Source: a virus
Virus record (IMG/VR): IMGVR_UViG_3300037520_000795
Location: 1-60,758 of that record
Direction: 5' to 3' (one strand)
Length of the DNA: 60,758 bases
The notes under the pieces are model-generated. The model was not told the origin of the DNA. It did no database searches and saw only the letters and a program-made list of their open reading frames with translations. Position numbers and translations under genes: made by a program. Positions 21,733 through 59,847 of the stretch are shown piece after piece. Numbering within the stretch: the stretch's first letter is position 1; the number at the start of each line of letters is the position of its first letter.

Positions 21733-22133
21733 ACTCACGGGACAAGGGCGGTCGGGGGGAGCGAGAGGGCTCGGCAATCTGGGCCAGCCTTTGGGGCGTC
21801 TTTGCCCGGCGTGGCCAGCAGCGGTCTGGTTCCCCGGACAGTCCGGATATCATCCATGGGATGGACGGCGTTCACATCGAGGTCAAGCGCTGTGAGCGTG
21901 GCAACCCGTACGACTGGATTACGCAGGCCGTCCGTGACGCTGGGGACAATATCCCTGTGGTCATGCACAAGAGAAACCACAGGCCGTGGCTGCTCATCGT
22001 GAGGTTGGAAGATGCCCCGAGATTCGTCATGGCGGCGGGCCTTAGCCCGACAGTTCAAGCGATGGGCGTCCAGGGAGTTCCCGCTGGTGTTCCCTGTGAG
22101 GGTGTATGTTCGACCGTCGAAGGTAATGGGTGA
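21729..22133 (+). CDS. Holliday junction resolvase-like PDDEXK nuclease
   Basis: 134 aa from TTG 21729 (TTGA overlap). Core: REGSAIW near residue 12, then SPDII near 38 and HIEVKR near 49 (the D...E-x-K signature), then a helix DWITQAVRDAG and strand PVVMHKRNHRPWLLIV. This is the layout of Hjc/PDDEXK-type resolvases of phages, which trim branched DNA. Residues after ~100 overlap the next gene in another frame and look less constrained. Confidence 0.75.
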   Translation: MNSRDKGGRGEREGSAIWASLWGVFARRGQQRSGSPDSPDIIHGMDGVHIEVKRCERGNPYDWITQAVRDAGDNIPVVMHKRNHRPWLLIVRLEDAPRFVMAAGLSPTVQAMGVQGVPAGVPCEGVCSTVEGNG

Positions 22134-22395
22134 TTACCTTGGGTACTTCCGGTTGCACGGAACCACCCATGCCGCCATCATTGCCGTCTCGGACGCGACC
22201 GACAAGACCACTCTGCTTGACACACTCTGCGAGGAATGGGCCCATGCGAGAACGTACAACCTGGGGACGCCCGCGGTCGATCGACTTATTCCCAAGCATC
22301 TCCCCACCCAAACCGGAGAAGACCCCCATCACCACCCTACTTTCTGGGCAGAGTACGGGCGAATCCAAACCGCCTGTCGAGCCCGAGATTTCTGA
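22012..22395 (+). CDS. SprT-like metallopeptidase-fold protein
   Basis: 127 aa, beginning 122 bp inside the resolvase gene. Strands VYVRPSKV and YLGYFRLHGTTHAAIIAVS lead to a helix CEEWAHART, then HHPTFWAEYGRI. This is the SprT/zincin-like layout common in phages, but the first His of HExxH is Glu (EEWAH), as in several phage members I recall, so peptidase activity is uncertain. It may be a structural or DNA-repair-associated homologue. Confidence 0.55.
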   Translation: MPRDSSWRRALARQFKRWASREFPLVFPVRVYVRPSKVMGDYLGYFRLHGTTHAAIIAVSDATDKTTLLDTLCEEWAHARTYNLGTPAVDRLIPKHLPTQTGEDPHHHPTFWAEYGRIQTACRARDF

Positions 22396-22738
22396 GGACG
22401 CCCGGCAGATCGGGGCCAACCTCTCCTGCCTGGACATCCTCCTGTCGGACGACCCCTACTGGCCCGTCTGCGTGGCCCTGTGGCGGCTCCTGTCCCGGAA
22501 GCGGGGGTATTACGGGTGCGTCCAACACCCCCTCCAGAACGCTCTGGGCGTGGCCGAGGACGGCATCATCCCCTGGGTCTACCAAGTCGCCCGAATCGGG
22601 GAGAAGTGCCGCCGACTCCGTGGCACTTTGGGGACACTAGCTATTAGGGAAACCCTCATGGACATCGCAGGCCATGCGGTCGTCGCCATCGCCTGTCTGA
22701 ATCACGCCGAACCCCCTCAGAAGAAGGACGAGACATGA
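22244..22738 (+). CDS. phage protein with DUF6378-like C-terminus
   Basis: 164 aa if ATG 22244 is used; the frame is open from 22130 and the true start is unclear because it overlaps the previous gene. The C-terminal ~110 residues are helical: LSDDPYWPVCVALWRLLSRK, then GVAEDGIIPWVYQVARIGEKCRR and RETLMDIAGHAVVAIACL. This resembles small phage proteins of the DUF6378 type, sometimes compared with MazG-like nucleotide hydrolases. Assignment from memory of the pattern. Confidence 0.5.
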   Translation: MRERTTWGRPRSIDLFPSISPPKPEKTPITTLLSGQSTGESKPPVEPEISEDARQIGANLSCLDILLSDDPYWPVCVALWRLLSRKRGYYGCVQHPLQNALGVAEDGIIPWVYQVARIGEKCRRLRGTLGTLAIRETLMDIAGHAVVAIACLNHAEPPQKKDET

Positions 22739-23055
22739 ACATCGCCGTCATGAAGTGGCTGCTCGCCAACCGCAACGTACTCCAGCAGGTGGTCGAGGCT
22801 GCCCGTGGCTGGAGGAAGGACATGCCCTACGCGGAGCAGTGGGTGATCGTCGACAAGATTGCCCGCATCCTCCTGCCCATCCTCGATCCGGCCACGGTCA
22901 CCAAGCTTTCGGTCCCGGAGTCCCCGGTCACGGTATCTGCTGCCATGTCTGTGGGTGCAGAGGTCCAGGCCCTGGGCGTGGACTGGAAGCTGATCGTGGA
23001 GGTCGTGATCCCGATCATCATCTCCATCCTCCAGGCCATCTCTCATACCCCGTGA
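22735..23055 (+). CDS. small helical protein with hydrophobic C-terminus
   Basis: 106 aa, ATGA overlap at its start and GTGA overlap at its end. Helices with Arg/Lys, then a hydrophobic C-terminal segment (IVEVVIPIIISILQAI) that could span or anchor in a membrane. As the first gene of the protease cassette it could be a holin-like or membrane-anchoring partner. Not recognised by family. Confidence 0.55.
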   Translation: MNIAVMKWLLANRNVLQQVVEAARGWRKDMPYAEQWVIVDKIARILLPILDPATVTKLSVPESPVTVSAAMSVGAEVQALGVDWKLIVEVVIPIIISILQAISHTP

Positions 23056-23990
23056 GCTACGTCAGCCTTCCTCCCTACCGAGTTGCTCTGGCTTCGTCCG
23101 TCAAGTCGGTAGGGGAGAGGCTTGACTGGGGGCTAAAAGCCTACGGCATCCCGTCGATCTGGTCGCGGAGCCAAGGCGAAGGTGCGGTGGTTGCGGTCAT
23201 CGACTCTGGCGTGGCCCACCACCCCGACCTTGAGAGTGCCGTCACAGACAGGCGGAACTTCACGCTCGACGCCGAGAGTTCGGATACGCTTGGGCACGGC
23301 ACGCATGTGGCGGGCATCATCGGGGCCCGCTCTGGGATGAAGGGCATCGCTCCTGCCTGCACCATCCTGTCTCTCAAGGTGCTCGGTCACTCGGGCACGG
23401 GCGACAACACGTGGGTGGCACAGGCTATCCAGCAGGCCGTGGAATCCAAGGCTGACATCATCTGCATGTCGCTCGGCAGTCCAAAGGCAGACAGCCAAAT
23501 CCACCATGCAGTCCGTGCTGCCCATGCTGCCGGTCTGATCGTGGTCTGTGCGGCTGGCAATGACGGCTCAGCGGTGAACTACCCTGCCGCCTTCCAGGAA
23601 ACCATCGGCGTCGGGGCCGTGGACAAGGACGGCAAGGCGTGCGAGTACTCGTCTCGCGGCAAGGAGATTGCCGTCGCCGCCCCCGGCAGTGACATCACAT
23701 CCTGCTGGATTGACAACGGGTACGCCACCATCAGTGGCACCAGCATGGCAGCACCGTTCGTGGCCGGGACGCTCGCGTTGTACGTCTCGTCTGCCCGCAA
23801 GAACGGCAAGAAGGTCAACCACGCCGATGTCATGGAAGCCTTGGCCAAGACCTGCACTGACGCCGGGGACGCAGGACGCGATCCGCTGTACGGCTGGGGT
23901 CTGATCGACCCGCACAAGCTCGTCAACTACAGCCCGTCCGATTCGCGGGACGGCGTTACACTATGGATTCCAGGAGCCAGGGTGCTATGA
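23052..23990 (+). CDS. subtilisin-like serine protease (S8)
   Basis: 312 aa from GTG 23052. The complete catalytic set is visible: Asp51 in VIDSGVAHH, His82 in LGHGTHVAG, Asn170 (oxyanion, AAGND) and Ser231 in SGTSMAAP. The chain starts almost at the catalytic domain: no signal peptide and no propeptide, so it is probably cytoplasmic until the membrane opens, or acts inside the virion. Subtilases are uncommon in phages. It sits between two membrane-protein genes and upstream of a C1 peptidase, which suggests lysis or envelope degradation. Confidence 0.92.
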   Translation: MSYVSLPPYRVALASSVKSVGERLDWGLKAYGIPSIWSRSQGEGAVVAVIDSGVAHHPDLESAVTDRRNFTLDAESSDTLGHGTHVAGIIGARSGMKGIAPACTILSLKVLGHSGTGDNTWVAQAIQQAVESKADIICMSLGSPKADSQIHHAVRAAHAAGLIVVCAAGNDGSAVNYPAAFQETIGVGAVDKDGKACEYSSRGKEIAVAAPGSDITSCWIDNGYATISGTSMAAPFVAGTLALYVSSARKNGKKVNHADVMEALAKTCTDAGDAGRDPLYGWGLIDPHKLVNYSPSDSRDGVTLWIPGARVL

Positions 23991-24226
23991 GCAAGCAAGT
24001 GCAGTTCGCCATCTTCGCCCTTACCGGCTGCGTGATCGTGGCCCAGTACGTTTACCCGTTGCTCAAGCCCTACCTCAAGCTGCCCGTACGCTCTGGTTCC
24101 AAGCTTCCGGCAATGCAGAACATCGAGTCAGTCATGATGGTGCGGGACCAGTACGTTGGTCGGGACCAAGCTGTGGTCGCGTGTGCCAATGAACTCCTGC
24201 AACTCCTCCTCAAAGCACAGGGCTGA
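23987..24226 (+). CDS. small membrane protein
   Basis: 79 aa from ATG 23987 (ATGA overlap with the protease). One N-terminal transmembrane segment (FAIFALTGCVIVAQYVYPLL), then a cytoplasmic or periplasmic tail with a helix (ACANELLQLLL). Position between two proteases makes a pinholin-, anchor- or spanin-like role possible. No family recognised. Confidence 0.65.
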   Translation: MSKQVQFAIFALTGCVIVAQYVYPLLKPYLKLPVRSGSKLPAMQNIESVMMVRDQYVGRDQAVVACANELLQLLLKAQG

Positions 24227-24229
24227 ACC

Positions 24230-24655
24230 ATGCGTAAGCACATCCCGATCCTGCTGTGCATTGCCTTGTGCCTGCTGACCATGATTCCGAAGGTCGAGCG
24301 ACGGGCACCACGCCCCGGCCCTGTCGCCACTGCCCTGGCCACGGCCACGTTCAAGGACAAGGACGACCTTCGCCGGTACTTCAACTCGATGGCTGACGTC
24401 ACCGCCCGAGACAAGGGCCAGCGAGTCAAGACCCTGGCTCAGTGGCGAGAGGCACACCGCAACGCCTTGGGCTTGGCGTTTGGCGGCACCGGACTGGTGG
24501 GCAAGTACCCCGGCCTCGACGTAGCCATCGACGGCATCCTCCACAAGCAGCAGGGGCTGGTTGACCAGTCACTCGCCACGCCCTTGTCGGACGGACGCAC
24601 CCTGTCGGATGTGCTGGTCGATGCCTGCAAGGAAGTAGAGGCTCAATGTGAATGA
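24230..24655 (+). CDS. exported or membrane-anchored protein
   Basis: 141 aa. The N-terminus KHIPILLCIALCLLTMIP is a signal peptide or anchor, with a Cys in the h-region, but there is no clean lipobox. The rest is soluble helix (DKDDLRRYFNSMADVTA, WREAHRNALGLAF) ending with two Cys. It precedes the C1 peptidase by overlap and may be its envelope partner. Function unknown. Confidence 0.65.
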   Translation: MRKHIPILLCIALCLLTMIPKVERRAPRPGPVATALATATFKDKDDLRRYFNSMADVTARDKGQRVKTLAQWREAHRNALGLAFGGTGLVGKYPGLDVAIDGILHKQQGLVDQSLATPLSDGRTLSDVLVDACKEVEAQCE

Positions 24656-25553
24656 GCATCTCCAGGGATACCGACCTGACCCGGCTGAACGCGAGAGCTT
24701 CCTTGCCAGCCAGCCTGTCCAGCGGTTCTCGATGGCTGGTCCCAAGGGCCAGTGGAAGGGCAAGCGGGCCACGCTGTGGCACTACTACCGCACCATCGAC
24801 CGCCGTGCGTACACCGAAGTGCAGACCGGACCCGACTGCACCTCGCATGGCAGCCGCAACGCACTCGACACCTCGCGGTCCGTGAGCATAGCGACTGGCC
24901 GGGCTCCCGCCACATGGAACACCATCACTGCCACCGAGCCCATCTACGGGGCGAGAGGCGACTGCGACCCACGGGGTGGCATGTCCCCTGCCCGAGCCTC
25001 ACGCTGGCTGCGTGACGTTGGCTACCACGGGAGGATGAAGTACGACGCCGTCGACTTGTCCACCTACAACTTCGCCATCGGCAGGGACTGGTGCCGGGGC
25101 GTGCCCGACAAGGTGAAGGCTCTGTGCGATGGCCGCAAGGCTGGCACCATCACCGCCATCGAATCCATGGACGACCTGTTCGACGCCCTTTTCAACGGGT
25201 ATGGAGTTCACTCCGGACAGAGTGCTGGCTGGGCAAGCACGCCCAACGGCATCTACCACCCACGCTCCCGCAACGACTGGGGGCACGACATGCAGATCGG
25301 CGGGTACGACGACACGCGTACGCACTGGCCGTACACCGTCGTGTTTCTCATGCAGTCTTGGGGTGACTGGAACGAGCCCGTCAAGGACTGGCCCGCCGAC
25401 CTCCCGCCCCCAGTGCCCGGCATGATCGTCAGCAAGGCAGACGATGCCGAGGTGTGCGTGGCAAGCAGGGATTGCTGGGCAGTCTCGGATGTTGTTGGCT
25501 ACCCGCCAACCGTGCTGCCAGACATGGGAACCATAGGGATGCTGCGAAGATGA
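24648..25553 (+). CDS. papain-like cysteine peptidase (C1 type)
   Basis: 301 aa from GTG 24648. Papain-like layout: Cys64 in GPDCTSHGSRNA, His213 in GHDMQIGGYDD, and Gln236 in MQSWGDW where papain has the Asn of NSWG. The Asn-to-Gln change is unusual but the geometry is kept. Conserved Trp/Gly spacing around both motifs supports the fold. No signal peptide is seen. It is the second protease of the cassette and a candidate lysis or virion-associated peptidase. Confidence 0.75.
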   Translation: MNEHLQGYRPDPAERESFLASQPVQRFSMAGPKGQWKGKRATLWHYYRTIDRRAYTEVQTGPDCTSHGSRNALDTSRSVSIATGRAPATWNTITATEPIYGARGDCDPRGGMSPARASRWLRDVGYHGRMKYDAVDLSTYNFAIGRDWCRGVPDKVKALCDGRKAGTITAIESMDDLFDALFNGYGVHSGQSAGWASTPNGIYHPRSRNDWGHDMQIGGYDDTRTHWPYTVVFLMQSWGDWNEPVKDWPADLPPPVPGMIVSKADDAEVCVASRDCWAVSDVVGYPPTVLPDMGTIGMLRR

Positions 25554-25780
25554 TCGAATACATCCTGGCTCTGTTCATCAACGGCCGGTCGTACGTTCCA
25601 GAGATTGCCGTCGAGACGGCTTTCGTTCTGGCTGCCGAGCCTGTCGCACCCGTGCCTGTGGTCACCGGCAAGTGCTGCACCGAGTGCAAGAACACCGGGA
25701 GGCTTGTCCATGGCGACGGGCACTCCACCGATTGCAAGTGCCCGCCCACCTGTGCCTGCAAGAAGAAAGCTGGACGATGA
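25550..25780 (+). CDS. small Cys-rich protein
   Basis: 76 aa from ATG 25550 (ATGA overlap). A hydrophobic start (MIEYILALFI) and a C-terminal Cys cluster: KCCTECKNTGR...DCKCPPTCACK, with C-x-x-C pairs like a DnaJ-type zinc-binding motif. It may bind zinc or sit in the envelope. Unknown role. Confidence 0.62.
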   Translation: MIEYILALFINGRSYVPEIAVETAFVLAAEPVAPVPVVTGKCCTECKNTGRLVHGDGHSTDCKCPPTCACKKKAGR

Positions 25781-26205
25781 AGACATGCAAGCTGCTGGAT
25801 GCGTGCGTGCGTGAGACGAAGGCTGGCAAGCTGGGCGGCGGTGCCAGCGATGCCATCGCCAGAGACATCGCCGCCATCGCCATCGAGTCCATGCCAGACG
25901 ACATAGGTCTGGTCGACAAGCGAGAGCTTCGCATGGCTGTGGCCGAGCGGTACATGGCCGAGCACAAGCCCGGCTTCCTGTTCTCGATGATCGTCCTCCC
26001 CGTCATGATCTCCCTCATCTCTCACTGGCTAGTCCAATGGTTCAAGAACCGACCGAGCCAACTCAAGGAACTGAAGGCAGCGGCATCGGGAGGGTGCGCC
26101 TGTCGGTTACGTACGGGGGCCACGCCCACCTGTACATCTACCGAGAAGGAGAAGAACTCGACGTCGTCGACGTCATCGCCAGACACGTGGCCGAAGGAAG
26201 GCTAG
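25777..26205 (+). CDS. membrane protein in the lysis-like cassette
   Basis: 142 aa from ATG 25777 (ATGA overlap). A soluble helical N-terminus, then one strong transmembrane segment (FLFSMIVLPVMISLISHWLV) near residue 70-90. The last ~45 residues become Ser/Thr/Cys-rich and out of character exactly where another frame (26037-26264) becomes protein-like, so the tail may be passive. One-TM holin- or anchor-like candidate. Confidence 0.6.
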   Translation: MKTCKLLDACVRETKAGKLGGGASDAIARDIAAIAIESMPDDIGLVDKRELRMAVAERYMAEHKPGFLFSMIVLPVMISLISHWLVQWFKNRPSQLKELKAAASGGCACRLRTGATPTCTSTEKEKNSTSSTSSPDTWPKEG

Positions 26206-26264
26206 AGCCGGACGCCGGGGACTTGTTGTGCATGATGCTTTGGGGGGGGTTCGATGACGCCTGA
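26037..26264 (+). CDS. small protein overlapping the previous gene in another frame
   Basis: 75 aa; a GTG at 26095 is a possible internal start. The sequence after residue ~19 is well-ordered (VRLSVTYGGHAHLYIYREGE, then DVIARHVAEGRLEPDAGD) and reads as a genuine small domain. It overlaps the membrane protein gene by 169 bp in a different frame, so frameshift fusion cannot be excluded. Confidence 0.5.
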   Translation: MVQEPTEPTQGTEGSGIGRVRLSVTYGGHAHLYIYREGEELDVVDVIARHVAEGRLEPDAGDLLCMMLWGGFDDA

Positions 26265-26481
26265 GACAGAACTGTGGATGCTGTTCGTCACGCTGGCCGT
26301 GGCTGTCACGCCGTGGGCATTTAGCCTGCACGCGAAGGTGGCGGTGATCGCCAACACAATCCAGACCCTACCGCGGATGCTTGAGGAAATGAAGGATACA
26401 CTCAAGCAGCATGAGTTCCGTCTGGACACGCATGAAAAAGAAATCCAAGCTATCAAAGCGACAGCAAGACCTGACCGTTGA
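26254..26481 (+). CDS. XhlA-like/holin-associated membrane coiled-coil protein
   Basis: 75 aa. One N-terminal transmembrane helix (WMLFVTLAVAVTPWAFSL) followed by a coiled coil (MLEEMKDTLKQHEFRLDTHE). This is the shape of XhlA-like or holin-associated phage proteins. It closes the membrane/protease cassette and overlaps the sigma factor gene. Confidence 0.6.
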   Translation: MTPETELWMLFVTLAVAVTPWAFSLHAKVAVIANTIQTLPRMLEEMKDTLKQHEFRLDTHEKEIQAIKATARPDR

Positions 26482-26968
26482 ATGGATGCACCTCGTCAGG
26501 CGTCTCGCAGTTTACTTCGTCCAGTTCCGGCCGGGCTGGCAGAAGTGGCTGTACGTTGACGACTTGGAAGGCGAAGGGTATCTGGCACTGGTCAAGGCCG
26601 CACGCACGTACGACCCGGCACGGCTGCCATACCCCAAGGCATACTTCGCCAGGGCCATACTCAATGCCATGCTCAAGCACATCAAGCGGACGACCCGCTG
26701 CCCCGGTGTGCGAACGTCGCTGAGCGAAGCGGAGCAGCAGGCCCCCGAGATGGAGGAGGCAGACGAGCTACGCATGGCAGTCATGGACTTGCCAGAGTGC
26801 GACCGGCCCATCGCCATCGACCGCTTCCTCATTGGCTGCACCATCCAATCAATCGCCGCACGCCACAACCTCACGGTACGGATGGCGTCTCTGCGTTCCC
26901 GGCGACTGGCAAAGATTCTTGCGGACGAATTGGGTATCCGTCTTGTGCGGCGCAATACAACCTCCTGA
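26411..26968 (+). CDS. phage sigma70-family RNA polymerase sigma factor
   Basis: 185 aa; ATG 26411, with 26432 and 26485 as alternatives. Region 2 is clear: YVDDLEGEGYLALVKAARTY, DPARLPYPKAYFARAILNAM and KHIKRTTR. Region 4-like helices follow after an acidic linker: LPECDRPIAIDRFLIGCTIQ, SIAARHNLTVRMASLRSRRL. It could redirect host RNA polymerase to late genes; no phage polymerase was found. Its 3' end overlaps the convergent recombinase by 98 bp. Confidence 0.8.
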   Translation: MSSVWTRMKKKSKLSKRQQDLTVEWMHLVRRLAVYFVQFRPGWQKWLYVDDLEGEGYLALVKAARTYDPARLPYPKAYFARAILNAMLKHIKRTTRCPGVRTSLSEAEQQAPEMEEADELRMAVMDLPECDRPIAIDRFLIGCTIQSIAARHNLTVRMASLRSRRLAKILADELGIRLVRRNTTS

Positions 26969-30588: not shown

Positions 30589-31791
30589 TCAGGCTCCTTT
30601 CTTCGGGGGACGCGGGGCGATGAAGCCCTTGGCGGTGAGGAAGTCGTGCAGGTAGGGGTAGGACTTGCGGGGCAGCCACTTGACGAAGGCGGTGGCACTC
30701 GCGGACTCGGCCATCGAGCGATTGCCGGGACCGCAGAACTCCACCAGAGCCTGTGCGAACTCCAGATTCTTCATGAACCCACGCTTGTTGAGCGTGCCCT
30801 TGAAGATGCGGAACTCGGCAGTGCGTCGGGTGATGTTGAGTGCCACGTACCGATCGTCGCCGTAGCGGACGTCGGAGATTTTCTTCTTGCTTACACGGGC
30901 CCACCGGTCACTGGTGCGGCCAGCGATCGTGGACACAAGGTGCTGGTTGGTGGGCTCGTTGACGAACACCAGCATCTTGCCAAGCTGGAGTTGGGTGAGG
31001 GCAGCCTTGGTGACATGCACGTGCATGCCACACCGGCCAGTCGTCCACGATGCCAGTCGCTTCTCGGGCTTGCTGGCGAAGAACGACTCCCAGTGCCGCT
31101 TGTGGACAGAGACACTGTCGGGACGGGTCACGATCTCGATGCCCTCGTCGGACAGGCTGCCGTCCTCCTTGAGCACCGCGTAGTCCGTGCCGAGATGCTC
31201 GCGGATGAACTCGGCACCGTCATCCTGACTGCGGTGAGCTTCGGTCTCAAGCTCGATGCCGTACTTGATCTTGTCCTTGGTCTCCGATCGCATGGTGTCG
31301 GCAGACCTGTCGCTGTAGTCGGACACGCCGCTGCTGCGACTGGAACTGCACGAATCGCACTGGCCATCGCACAGGTCGTCGTTCCAGTGCTCGGTGCCGC
31401 AGTCCTCGCAGCATGAGACATGGTCGTCGTAGCAGTCTCCGCACAGGTGGTCGCCGCCCGGAGAGGAGTAGGCGTCGCGGCGTCGGATGTTGTCGCCGCA
31501 CAGCGAGCAGCTTGCTGTCATGTGCTCCGGGTAGTACTCGCCGTCGATCGACACGCAGTCGTCGACCCAGCGGAACTCGCCGTCGTAGCACTCGCAGATG
31601 CGGTCGTCATCCCGGTCGACCCAGTCGCCGCTGGTCAACTGCACGGCACACTCTGCATGCACGATGGTGCCGCACTCCAGCGTGACGACATCGGCGGGCA
31701 GGTAGTACTCGCCGTCGCTGGCAAGGATGGCATCGCCGCCATCGTACTCCGTGCCGTCATGAAGGGTCACCGTCTTGTTGGCGTTGGTCAA
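30589..31791 (-). CDS. amidoligase-like (COOH-NH2 ligase) protein with Cys-rich N-terminus
   Basis: 400 aa from TTG 31791 (TTGA overlap with the neighbour). Residues ~90-170 hold Cys pairs (SLCGDNIRRRD, CGDCYDDHVSCCEDCG, LCDGQCDSC) suggesting zinc binding. The rest matches the phage amidoligase family of the glutamine-synthetase-like/COOH-NH2 ligase group: KIKYGIELETEA, ETVTRPDS-like EIVTRPDS, GRCGMHVHV, RYVALNITRRTAEFRIFKGT and LEFAQALVEF. Such enzymes form amide bonds, possibly on proteins or peptides. The partner glutamine amidotransferase is adjacent. Confidence 0.72.
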   Translation of the reverse strand: MTNANKTVTLHDGTEYDGGDAILASDGEYYLPADVVTLECGTIVHAECAVQLTSGDWVDRDDDRICECYDGEFRWVDDCVSIDGEYYPEHMTASCSLCGDNIRRRDAYSSPGGDHLCGDCYDDHVSCCEDCGTEHWNDDLCDGQCDSCSSSRSSGVSDYSDRSADTMRSETKDKIKYGIELETEAHRSQDDGAEFIREHLGTDYAVLKEDGSLSDEGIEIVTRPDSVSVHKRHWESFFASKPEKRLASWTTGRCGMHVHVTKAALTQLQLGKMLVFVNEPTNQHLVSTIAGRTSDRWARVSKKKISDVRYGDDRYVALNITRRTAEFRIFKGTLNKRGFMKNLEFAQALVEFCGPGNRSMAESASATAFVKWLPRKSYPYLHDFLTAKGFIAPRPPKKGA

Positions 31792-32690
31792 GATCGTTCT
31801 CCCGAGTGGTGGTAGTGAAGTTCGCTGATGGCATCGACGCCTTCGCTCTGGATCATGTCGTCAAGCTCTTGGATGGAGTAGCCCATCTCAAGGAGGTCTT
31901 CGTACTCAAACTGCTGGTCGTGGTGCATGTTGGACAGGTAGCGGCTCTCGTTGTGGGCTTTCACCTGCAACTCCTCCGCGTACGCTGCCCATGCCGCACT
32001 GTCTGCGGCAAGAATGTCGTCGCGAGACTCAGACGAATCGCCAAGCACAATCAGCTTGCCGTCGTCGTCGTCCTTTGACTGCTTTTTTTCCCAGTGCTCC
32101 GTGTGCCACTTGGACATGCCGTAGGAGGCAGTGCTGCCGTAGCCGAAGCCGTAGGACTTGTAGGACTTGTTGCTGTACCAGACACCGGACTCCCAGTGTC
32201 CGTCCTCCTCGTTCCAGATACCGTACTGACCGTCCCGTCGCAGGAAGCAGAACTTGCTACCCGAGATGGCTTGACTGCCCATGTAGGCAATCTCTGGACG
32301 CAGGAAGAAGTCCGGGTCACGCTTGGCCATGGGTGCCAACACACCGTCGACATAGTGCCACGTATCCGAACGCTTGGGCTTGGTCTTGGTGTCAATGTCC
32401 AACACACCGTTGTGGATCATGACGGTCTCGTCAGTGACCCAGAACGGGTGACAGTTCTTGACGCCGCGAGTGCCGTGAGTTGCCCATCGGAAGTGGATCA
32501 GAGCCTGATGCTCTGCCCACGGCAGGTACGCCTCAAGGAACTCGGCGTACTTGTAGAACCCCTTGAACACACGCATGTGGCCGCGGTCGACCACAGCGAA
32601 ACCGGCACTGTGAGGGTTTGAGACAAACCCTTCCTCCAGGTGATCGTGTGGCACGATGACGCCGGATGGCTTGTAGATGGCTAGGCACAC
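31788..32690 (-). CDS. class II glutamine amidotransferase-like Ntn hydrolase
   Basis: 300 aa from GTG 32690 with GGAGG upstream. This start gives MCLAIYKPSG, so Met removal exposes Cys as the N-terminal nucleophile of class II GATases. Supporting motifs: SAGFAVVDRG, HFRWATHGTRG and ETVMIHNGV (the last two are characteristic of the class II fold). It would release ammonia from glutamine for the amidoligase downstream. Paired amidoligase and class II GATase genes are known in phages, but the substrate is unknown. Confidence 0.78.
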   Translation of the reverse strand: MCLAIYKPSGVIVPHDHLEEGFVSNPHSAGFAVVDRGHMRVFKGFYKYAEFLEAYLPWAEHQALIHFRWATHGTRGVKNCHPFWVTDETVMIHNGVLDIDTKTKPKRSDTWHYVDGVLAPMAKRDPDFFLRPEIAYMGSQAISGSKFCFLRRDGQYGIWNEEDGHWESGVWYSNKSYKSYGFGYGSTASYGMSKWHTEHWEKKQSKDDDDGKLIVLGDSSESRDDILAADSAAWAAYAEELQVKAHNESRYLSNMHHDQQFEYEDLLEMGYSIQELDDMIQSEGVDAISELHYHHSGERS

Positions 32691-57839: not shown

Positions 57840-58391
57840 ATGCAAGCCGAACGCGACATGGAAGTTCCCGCAGAGATCGCCTCGTCCCCACGGTCCGTCC
57901 AGGATCACTACCGGAAGATGATCCGGGATGGCCAGAGCGAGCGGTTCGCGGTCATGTGTGCCTTGCAGGTCGCCCCCGGAACGCACGGCTGTGACCGGGC
58001 GTTCATGGAGGGCCGCATGAACAACCAGCAACTGGATGACATGCCAGAGAACCAAGCCAAGTACATCGCCCGCGAGGCCCGTGGTGCTGGCATCTCGATC
58101 GAGGGCAAGTACTACGTTGGTGGTCTGGCTGACGGGCGAGGCTGGAGGGACCCGGAAGCGTGGGTGTCCTCGACCGACGACATCCTCAAGGTCGCCAAGA
58201 AGCGGCGTCGGATGGTTCAGGGCAACGTCAACTACGACCCCGGCCCCGAGGCCCCGCAGCGAAAGGTGATGAGCGAGCGTCTCATCAAGGAGTACGTGGC
58301 CAGGGAACGCAAGACCGATCGGAAGAGTTCCGACGCTGACCTGCGTGCCAAGGTGATCGAGAAGCACGCCTACAAGGCCAAGGGGCGATGA
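57840..58391 (+). CDS. hypothetical protein near fibre genes
   Basis: 183 aa. Helical N-terminus (SVQDHYRKMIRDGQSERFAV) with a Cys pair, then RFAVMCALQVAPGTHGCDRA, and basic C-terminal coiled segments (LIKEYVARERKTDRKS). Stop overlaps the next ATG. No family recognised. Confidence 0.62.
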   Translation: MQAERDMEVPAEIASSPRSVQDHYRKMIRDGQSERFAVMCALQVAPGTHGCDRAFMEGRMNNQQLDDMPENQAKYIAREARGAGISIEGKYYVGGLADGRGWRDPEAWVSSTDDILKVAKKRRRMVQGNVNYDPGPEAPQRKVMSERLIKEYVARERKTDRKSSDADLRAKVIEKHAYKAKGR

Positions 58392-58618
58392 GCAACTACC
58401 GCTACTTCCAGATGAAGCGGGACGACGAATCCGAGTGGATTCGCAAGAACCCCATTCTTCAACCTGGAGAGCCGGGGTTCTCGCGGGACACGAACACCAT
58501 GAAGGTTGGGGACGGAATCCTGCGATGGTCGGAACTGCCCAGGGCACTGGGTTCAGCGGGTGCTATTGCCGTGCTTTCCGAGGGGGTCACCACTCCGCTG
58601 GTGATTGACGTCCAATGA
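58388..58618 (+). CDS. fibre-head protein with Mtd-N-like motif
   Basis: 76 aa, ATGA overlap. The motif NPILQPGEPGFSRDTNTMKVGDG followed by WSELP is typical of the start of phage fibres and the major tropism determinant/hyaluronidase-type domain. It is coupled to the fibre gene and may be its separate head-binding piece. Confidence 0.62.
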   Translation: MSNYRYFQMKRDDESEWIRKNPILQPGEPGFSRDTNTMKVGDGILRWSELPRALGSAGAIAVLSEGVTTPLVIDVQ

Positions 58619-59847
58619 CCGCCGCCATGACGTTTCAGACCCGCGTGGTGATCGACCACATTCGCGGGACATCGTCTGCGCTTGCAGCAGCCAACCCGGT
58701 CGTTGGGTACGGCGTGTTCGTCATGGAGACCGACGCCGATCGAGGGAAGTTCGGGGACGGCCTCACGGCCTACAACGATCTTCCGTACTTTGCGGGCGAA
58801 GCTACCTGGGCCTCACTGTCGGGCAAGCCAGCCAGCTTCACTCCATCGTCGCACGCGTCCACGCACGGCTCGGCCGGTGCCGATCCAATCACCGTCGCCA
58901 TCAGTCAGGTCACCGGCCTCCAGACTGCCCTGGATGGCAAGCAGGCTACTGGCAGCTATGTCCTGACCACCGACTCCAGGCTGTCGGACTCGCGAGAGTG
59001 GTCGGCAGCCACGGTCACCCAGGCCCAAGCGGAGGCGGGCACGGGGACGACTCGTCTGGCGTGGACCGTGCAGCGAGTGTGGCAGGCAATTGCCGCATGG
59101 TGGGCGGCTTCTGCGGACAAGACGAAGCTTGACGGCGTGGCGGTCGGTGCGACGGCCAACTCGTCAGACGCTCACCTCTTGAGCCGAGACAACCACACCG
59201 GGACGCAGGTCGCCAGCACGATCAGCGACTTCTCCACGGCAGCAGTCGCGGCGGTCACCTGGACGACCCTGACCGGCAAGCCGTCGTTCGCCACCGTAGC
59301 AACAACCGGTTCCTACACGGACCTGTCCAACACCCCGGCTGCGTACACGCTCCCAACCGCCACTGCCTCTGTCCTTGGTGGCGTGAAGATCGGTTCGGGC
59401 ATTAGCATCGACGGCAATGGCGTGATCTCGGCATCTTCTGGATACACGCTCCCGATCGCATCCGCTTCCGTCCTGGGGGGCATCAAGATCGGTTCGGGTT
59501 TGTCCATCGACGGCTCTGGCGTGGTGTCTGCGGCCGGAACGTACACGCTGCCAAACGCCACGACCTCGACGCTCGGTGGCGTGATCATCGGCACGGGGCT
59601 GGCAGTGTCGTCGGGGACGGTCTCGGTGACCTACGGCACGAGCTCGAGCACTGCATGCGTCGGTGACGACGCGCGGCTCTCAGACGCAAGGACGCCGACG
59701 GCACATACGCAGGCTTGGTCGACCATCACGAGCACGCCTACGACACTTGCTGGATACGGCATTACCGATGGGCAAAAGACGATCACCAGCGGCACGGCCG
59801 CCCCGTCCGGCGGGAGTTCCGGGGATATCTACCTGAGGTACTCCTAA
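58615..59847 (+). CDS. tail fibre protein with tandem repeats
   Basis: 410 aa. The start (FQTRVVIDHIRGTSSALAAA, then GKFGDGLTAYNDLPYFAG) resembles fibre N-terminal domains. Middle: collagen-free beta repeats (WASLSGKPASFTPSSHAS, ATVATTGSYTDLSNTPA). C-terminal: three tandem 33-residue repeats beginning YTLPxAtASVLGG. Trimeric receptor-binding fibre likely. Confidence 0.8.
   Translation: MTAAMTFQTRVVIDHIRGTSSALAAANPVVGYGVFVMETDADRGKFGDGLTAYNDLPYFAGEATWASLSGKPASFTPSSHASTHGSAGADPITVAISQVTGLQTALDGKQATGSYVLTTDSRLSDSREWSAATVTQAQAEAGTGTTRLAWTVQRVWQAIAAWWAASADKTKLDGVAVGATANSSDAHLLSRDNHTGTQVASTISDFSTAAVAAVTWTTLTGKPSFATVATTGSYTDLSNTPAAYTLPTATASVLGGVKIGSGISIDGNGVISASSGYTLPIASASVLGGIKIGSGLSIDGSGVVSAAGTYTLPNATTSTLGGVIIGTGLAVSSGTVSVTYGTSSSTACVGDDARLSDARTPTAHTQAWSTITSTPTTLAGYGITDGQKTITSGTAAPSGGSSGDIYLRYS
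59344..59640 (+). repeat. three tandem 99-bp repeats in the fibre gene
   Basis: Copies begin at 59344, 59443 and 59542 (period 99 bp = 33 aa). Each encodes YTLP-x-A-x-(6)-GG-x-(2)-IG(S/T)G. Third copy is diverged. Could shorten or lengthen by recombination. Confidence 0.78.

Follow-up and report, generated by a model that had tools for sequence, protein, structure and literature searches.

The IMG/VR virus record IMGVR_UViG_3300037520_000795, from an uncultured lake phage and analyzed here over its full 60,758 bases (hereafter the window), carries at positions 22735–26968 a run of about ten genes on one strand, most of which overlap their neighbors by at least 4 bases, chiefly through ATGA or GTGA junctions (Table 1). 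Two of the products are proteases, a subtilase of family S8 and a C1-like cysteine peptidase (hereafter C1), and five (c13, c11, c10, c36, and c48) are predicted to have a single transmembrane (TM) segment. TM segments were predicted for nine of the 84 genes called in the window, and five of the nine fall within the eight-gene cassette (hypergeometric P = 2e-4). An earlier note on this DNA had described 22735–26481 as a lysis-like cassette built on a complete S8 subtilase and a C1-like peptidase among four or five one-TM proteins, one of them with a coiled coil (c48). All of these are present, and the active-site residues that it assigned to the subtilase (Asp51, His82, Asn170, Ser231) and to C1 (Cys64, His213, Gln236) are exactly placed. 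The operon also takes in a small soluble open reading frame (ORF) and a gene for a sigma-70 region 2 protein, a possible late regulator. An ORF start at 25454 (25454–25780) was dropped for the shorter gene listed in Table 1, whose Cys-rich product is conserved after C1 in relatives.

Table 1. Genes of the protease cassette and its downstream continuation in the window
Gene or product	Position	Strand	Features
c13	22735..23055	+	Soluble N-terminal region, C-terminal TM (86-104); opens the conserved cassette
S8 subtilase, intracellular subtilisin type	23052..23990	+	GTG start, 312 aa; D51, H82, N170, S231
c11	23987..24226	+	N-terminal TM, tail of ~50 aa
c10	24230..24655	+	N-terminal membrane anchor, novel helical domain; usual neighbor of C1
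C1-like papain-fold cysteine peptidase	24648..25553	+	301 aa; Q59, C64, H213, Q236
Cys-rich small protein	25550..25780	+	Carries the motif CxxC...HGDGH...C-C and a hydrophobic N-terminus; overlaps the C1 stop codon
c36	25777..26205	+	Single central TM
Small soluble ORF	26037..26264	+	Overlaps c36; visual similarity only to cl94 of relatives
c48	26254..26481	+	N-terminal TM, coiled coil; holin/XhlA-like
Sigma-70 region 2 protein	26486..26968	+	Closes the gene run; PF04542 1.9e-7, phrog_234 late sigma factor 6.6e-5

The C1 enzyme of the window has no Pfam match and does not reach the curated cut-off of PF00112 (Peptidase_C1), hence its designation as C1-like; three of 11 relatives do match that family, with a best E of 0.003. 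Profile searches against PDB sequences returned weak cysteine-protease matches (best E 0.072), and a fold search was needed. The AlphaFold2 model of C1 (pLDDT 91.1) was matched best by Foldseek to xylellain and cathepsin B in the PDB (E 7.5e-9, probability 1.00, TM-score 0.5–0.6), and on this modelled fold C1 belongs with the papain-type peptidases but has diverged beyond what Pfam recognizes. Eight residues (E57, Q59, D63, C64, H67, R70, H213, and W238) are invariant in 42 diverse members, of which ≥90% have Asn at position 236; the Gln236 of the window protein is therefore a local departure from a genuine papain triad. A profile search places the family in at least 531 viral contigs, from phages of approximately 33–210 kb and mostly next to small TM proteins. 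Three different single-sequence C1 queries found no match in cultured phages. Directly before Cys64, in-frame inteins interrupt C1 in three relatives (G023 [L133], L222, and L232), and an in-frame intein also lies within the GHGTH motif, after the catalytic-His motif, of the subtilase of L171; the inteins of both enzymes carry homing-endonuclease-like sequence. Inteins prefer the active sites of essential enzymes, and so the active sites of both C1 and S8 probably matter.

The subtilase is a clear member of its family (PF00082, E = 5.8e-54), and its nearest PDB entries are the intracellular subtilisins (ISPs) 7y6m and 7xr8 (E 1.8e-47). It has neither a signal peptide nor a large prodomain, and an N-terminal LPPY motif is invariant among the S8 members listed. 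ISPs are cytoplasmic zymogens in which an N-terminal LIPY/F segment is inhibitory. Judged by its sequence, the phage enzyme looks like a cytoplasmic zymogen of this type, putatively inhibited by its LPPY segment. Comparison of the window with contigs L001 and L002, which was limited to the five comparable genes c13, S8, c11, c10, and C1, indicates purifying selection on all of them (pN/pS 0.14–0.41), with values of 0.15–0.18 for S8 and 0.31–0.34 for c13.

This gene set is a constant feature of the phage clade to which the window belongs. Terminase searches recovered 158 related viral loci; among the 43 records tested, both proteases occur in every record above 50 kb as well as in the 33- and 44-kb records that hold the region, and one 48-kb record (G026) stops just short of the cassette site. 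The earlier note had proposed a search for its gene order in other planctomycete phages, and the same order recurs in every near-complete relative: c13–S8–c11–c10–C1, with c13 first, is constant in 12 of 12 region-holding genomes including the window, and these five genes belong to the 32 gene clusters found in all ten near-complete genomes. Downstream of C1, the presence of c36, c48, and the sigma factor is variable, followed by a convergent resolvase. Five related records end in direct terminal repeats of 91–127 bases.

More distant phages distinguish the two proteases. S8 is present and intact in 54 near loci (five apparent losses were misses of the regular-expression pattern, not real losses), and none of the 22 distant loci that extend 2.6 kb or more upstream has it, which rules out a core made of two proteases. 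The distant loci keep C1, generally adjoining the membrane-anchored c10 protein and accompanied by other one-TM proteins; c10 was found beside C1 by BLAST in about half of them, and by eye in more. Because C1 persists where S8 is absent, the conserved core is the papain-like module with its enzyme, to which a serine protease is an optional addition. At one distant locus (L227), a secreted trypsin-like protease (Trypsin_2, 3.5e-17) is encoded three genes upstream, and a weak match to thioredoxin lies downstream. The relatives of L154, which is a phage contig assigned to a Planctomycetaceae metagenome-assembled genome (MAG), vary further. Within the stretches covered, C1 occurs in two of 60 loci related to L154 by capsid; L325 encodes a classical papain instead (PF00112, 1.3e-7), approximately 2.3 kb downstream of its capsid gene, and L326 and L369 have in the C1 slot, on a reading of motifs only, a secreted protein whose Cys/His motifs are papain-like, together with a thioredoxin-like protein (Pfam gives no match for L326). 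This replacement of C1 by other papain-type enzymes suggests that what counts is the type of enzyme. Separately, the 117,778-base record IMGVR_UViG_3300049595_001870 (L204 and L209) contains two different C1 modules ~58 kb apart and probably combines the genomes of two phages.

Among the small proteins that surround C1, Pfam and PHROG give no match for c13. The c10 protein lies immediately upstream of C1 throughout the clade, as it does in many distant phages; its AlphaFold2 model is helical (pLDDT 94.4), and a fold search returned no PDB match at E ≤ 0.001. At L179 and L212, a single two-TM gene before C1 replaces both c11 and c10. The c48 protein matches PF24073 (DUF7365, 3.2e-6) and, weakly, phrog_1296, annotated as holin (4.8e-6), which is matched in two relatives as well (1.8e-5 and 1.6e-5); a 58-aa protein of L159, unrelated to c48, weakly matches a different holin family (phrog_9987, 1.1e-4). 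A protein with the Cys-rich motif directly follows C1 in more than two dozen of 88 loci under a strict pattern, and a related motif shares a polypeptide with a c10-like region in L159; in L157 it forms a fusion with thioredoxin. Similar small multi-TM proteins lie downstream near C1 in four distant phages (L156, L230, L233, and L236), that of L156 matching Transgly_assoc (PF04226, 8.7e-6), and a one-TM protein of the L156 module (938–1399) has a ComEA-like HHH_3 DNA-binding domain (E 1.7e-18).

Six-frame searches of the window found no match to SLT, Amidase_2, NLPC_P60, Phage_lysozyme, CHAP, M15_4, Amidase_3, or M23, and these eight Pfam families likewise gave nothing above cut-off in 21 C1-carrying records, including phages of 160–210 kb; seven had no match there, and M15_4 had none above threshold. 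Pfam scans of the window proteins found no muralytic domain, and a search of the large virion proteins for a cryptic endolysin yielded nothing significant.

The clustering of TM proteins, the weak holin matches in two unrelated settings, the core status of C1, and the absence of muralytic domains together lead us to a tentative interpretation, held at somewhat less than even confidence: that the cassette is an undescribed, papain-centered, putative host-exit (lysis) module with C1 as its cutting enzyme, to which one clade has added an ISP-type subtilase. Also counted in its favor are the conserved gene order, the invariant catalytic residues and papain fold of C1, the inteins in both active sites, the papain-type substitutes among the capsid relatives of L154, and phage proteins with peptidoglycan-related names among the structural neighbors of C1 in BFVD. 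Under such a scheme, the overlapping genes would be expressed together, and the small TM proteins, including the holin-like c48 with its coiled coil, would enter the cytoplasmic membrane. Permeabilization of the membrane by these proteins could then allow the signal-less C1 to reach the envelope, where the membrane-anchored c10 domain may hold it while it cuts peptide bonds in either wall protein or peptidoglycan peptide. The Cys-rich or thioredoxin-type partner might reduce the catalytic Cys of C1 or open disulfides of the wall. The subtilase would be made as an inactive zymogen with its LPPY segment in the active site, and would act from the cytoplasmic side.

Several observations weigh against this interpretation. 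The cassette sits past the replication block of the window and outside its structural block; C1, like S8, has no signal peptide; and the holin matches are weak, and TM plus coiled-coil proteins match promiscuously. No spanin pair was identified, although no systematic spanin or lipobox search was made, and no lipobox was seen by eye in c10. Within the stretches covered, some of them in partial records, 32 of 80 relatives of L233 identified by dCMP deaminase are without C1. Sister phages without C1 have no recognized muralytic enzyme either: two partial records (G062 and G067, 33 and 36 kb) have no muralytic Pfam domain, and ten have no Amidase_2. The absence of such domains is thus not specific to C1 carriers, proves little on its own, and is weakened as decisive proof. 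Finally, cousins of S8 in the cultured phages MTATph1 of Moorella and vB_BcoS-136 of Bacillus lie among replication, nucleotide, DnaJ, and ClpP genes, and this, with the resemblance to cytoplasmic ISPs, makes the subtilase the weaker lysis candidate; it is likely an accessory in the cassette, with the papain-like enzyme the likelier lysis agent. The earlier proposal that the proteases could be lysis agents is partly supported; it fares better for C1, which sits among small TM proteins, one of them weakly holin-like, than for the clade-restricted S8.

An alternative is proteolysis within the cell. S8 and C1 might act in the cytoplasm or at the inner membrane face on host or phage proteins, whether for recycling of precursors or for inactivation of host or defense proteins, with the TM proteins as tethers and lysis left to something unrecognized. 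The ISP-like sequence and N-terminal motif of S8, the genomic setting of its cultured cousins, the missing signal peptides of both proteases, and the location of the cassette after the replication block are all consistent with this host-takeover role. We nevertheless consider it somewhat unlikely: it leaves five TM proteins unexplained, c10 and the Cys-rich partners look extracytoplasmic (as in the secreted-thioredoxin fusions), and S8, missing from distant modules, cannot be the core.

It is also conceivable that C1 is a divergent but ordinary muralytic endopeptidase, that is, a papain-fold endolysin that cuts stem or cross-link peptides in a normal holin–endolysin cassette missed by Pfam. 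The papain fold is that of CHAP, NlpC/P60, and related phage lysins (PMC10318531), and 20% of known phage endolysins are endopeptidases (PMC12596118). Structural neighbors of C1 in BFVD include, besides phage Peptidase_C1 proteins, entries deposited under the names "peptidoglycan binding-like" and "N acetylmuramidase," and peptidoglycan is present in the planctomycetes tested (PMC4432640), the group to which the hosts may belong (see below). But the nearest solved folds (the C1A enzymes xylellain and cathepsin B) cleave protein, C1 has the C1A N/QSW motif, its 301 residues include no separate wall-binding domain, and a serine protease joins the module both in the clade (S8) and, as a trypsin-like enzyme, in L227; on balance this explanation appears unlikely. 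It does bear on the earlier claim that the cassette has no muralytic enzyme, which stands at the level of Pfam domains but is overstated, since the papain fold is common among peptidoglycan hydrolases and C1 itself could cut peptidoglycan peptides.

A role in the virion, with the proteases either maturing capsid or internal proteins or riding in the particle to open the envelope at entry, would fit the L154-type phages, where C1 lies between the major capsid protein (MCP) gene and the next head gene; inteins and core status would fit any essential enzyme. These same phages, however, already have an MCP fused to a prohead-protease-like domain (annotated by eye), and the window cassette (22.7–26.5 kb) is separated by ~20 kb from the genes for scaffold, MCP, and portal (scaffold/MCP region 47–49 kb). 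The position of the C1 module varies in other phages, and prohead proteases are not accompanied by sets of small TM proteins. Maturation or injection is very unlikely as the function of the cassette. The two outcomes that the earlier note had held to be contrary to its proposal, a cryptic endolysin and proteases serving solely in virion maturation, were neither of them found.

Members of the C1 family were also found on nine genome contigs, four of them in Planctomycetota MAGs and five in MAGs of Synechococcaceae, Flavobacteriales, SAR202, and Lokiarchaeota; one of the four (L153), a 55-kb Pirellulaceae contig, has nearly the whole cassette, with C1 82% and S8 76% identical to clade members. 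These contigs may be mis-binned, but the four of nine suggest a Planctomycetota host for these phages. Our literature search found no planctomycete phage and no subtilisin lysis cassette. The reliance of planctomycetes on protein walls, which the earlier note had coupled to this host, is disputed: peptidoglycan has been demonstrated in planctomycetes and is lysozyme-sensitive (PMC4432640), whereas most Planctomycetales are reported to lack the genes for peptidoglycan synthesis, and wall preparations to contain Cys-rich YTV proteins (PMC8567305). A wall of Cys-rich protein would be a fitting target for a Cys protease that has thiol-active partners. Quite unlikely, in our view, is the fuller version of this idea, in which a load-bearing Cys-rich protein wall of Planctomycetota is lysed by the papain-like protease (with the subtilase in one clade) and a thiol-active, Cys-rich or thioredoxin-like helper, peptidoglycan hydrolases being wholly replaced.

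Whichever function applies, this is a conserved, apparently undescribed gene set found in hundreds of environmental phages, some of them very large; it is located where lysis genes would be expected, and is built on a protein-type protease. If the C1 module lyses cells, it would represent a new enzyme class in phage egress, and the bond cut by C1 would tell whether protein or peptidoglycan bears the load in the Planctomycetota wall. The module may also serve as a marker for phages whose hosts have no cultured viruses.

Other features of the window merit description. Just upstream of the cassette, 22012–22395 (+) encodes a conserved small protein for which Pfam gives no match and whose EEWAHA...HHHPTFWAEYGRI sequence resembles a zinc metallopeptidase signature. 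On the opposite strand, an Amidoligase_2 protein (30589–31791, −; PF12224, E 1.4e-5) overlaps a protein starting MCLAIYKPSG (31788–32690, −), likely the class-II glutamine amidotransferase of the window scan; the two possibly form a peptide- or envelope-modification pair, and their clusters recur in G016. An NPLN tag opens five otherwise different proteins (gene starts 8094, 42555, 44775, 45362, and 45963) and might direct the packaging or sorting of internal virion proteins; one window protein, probably among those tagged, has an ART-PolyVal (ADP-ribosyltransferase) domain. Head-fiber genes (PF11133 matches) lie at ~58388–59847. The window also contains a match to Mtd_N, the N-terminal domain of the major tropism determinant, and no reverse transcriptase family is among the window scan matches listed.

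The subtilase has LPPY where ISPs have LIPY/F, and is encoded within a phage membrane-protein operon. With ISPs of known structure (7y6m, 7xr8, and 2x8j) it shares length, catalytic residues, the lack of a signal peptide, and an N-terminal L-x-x-Y segment. C1 has the fold, the Gln-Cys-His-Asn site, and the SWG motif of papain family C1A (PF00112; xylellain 3ois, cathepsin B), but differs in having no recognized propeptide and in its additional invariant residues E57, D63, H67, and R70. As in a canonical holin–endolysin(–spanin) cassette, the genes are compact and coupled, and encode small TM proteins, one of them with a holin-like PHROG match, alongside one hydrolase; here, however, the hydrolase is of C1 type, a subtilase is added, and no muralytic domain or spanin is recognized. 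CHAP and NlpC/P60 lysins and the pseudomurein endoisopeptidases PeiW and PeiP share the Cys-His papain-like fold and use it to cut envelope peptide bonds (PMC10318531), but the CHAP and NLPC_P60 profiles do not match C1, whose closest structures are protein proteases. Nearest in concept is the egress proposed for archaeal viruses by a holin and an S-layer protease (PMC4456609), which likewise pairs disruption of the membrane with proteolytic attack on a protein coat; that proposal is a hypothesis only, whereas the module described here is a concrete, conserved gene set in what are probably bacterial phages.

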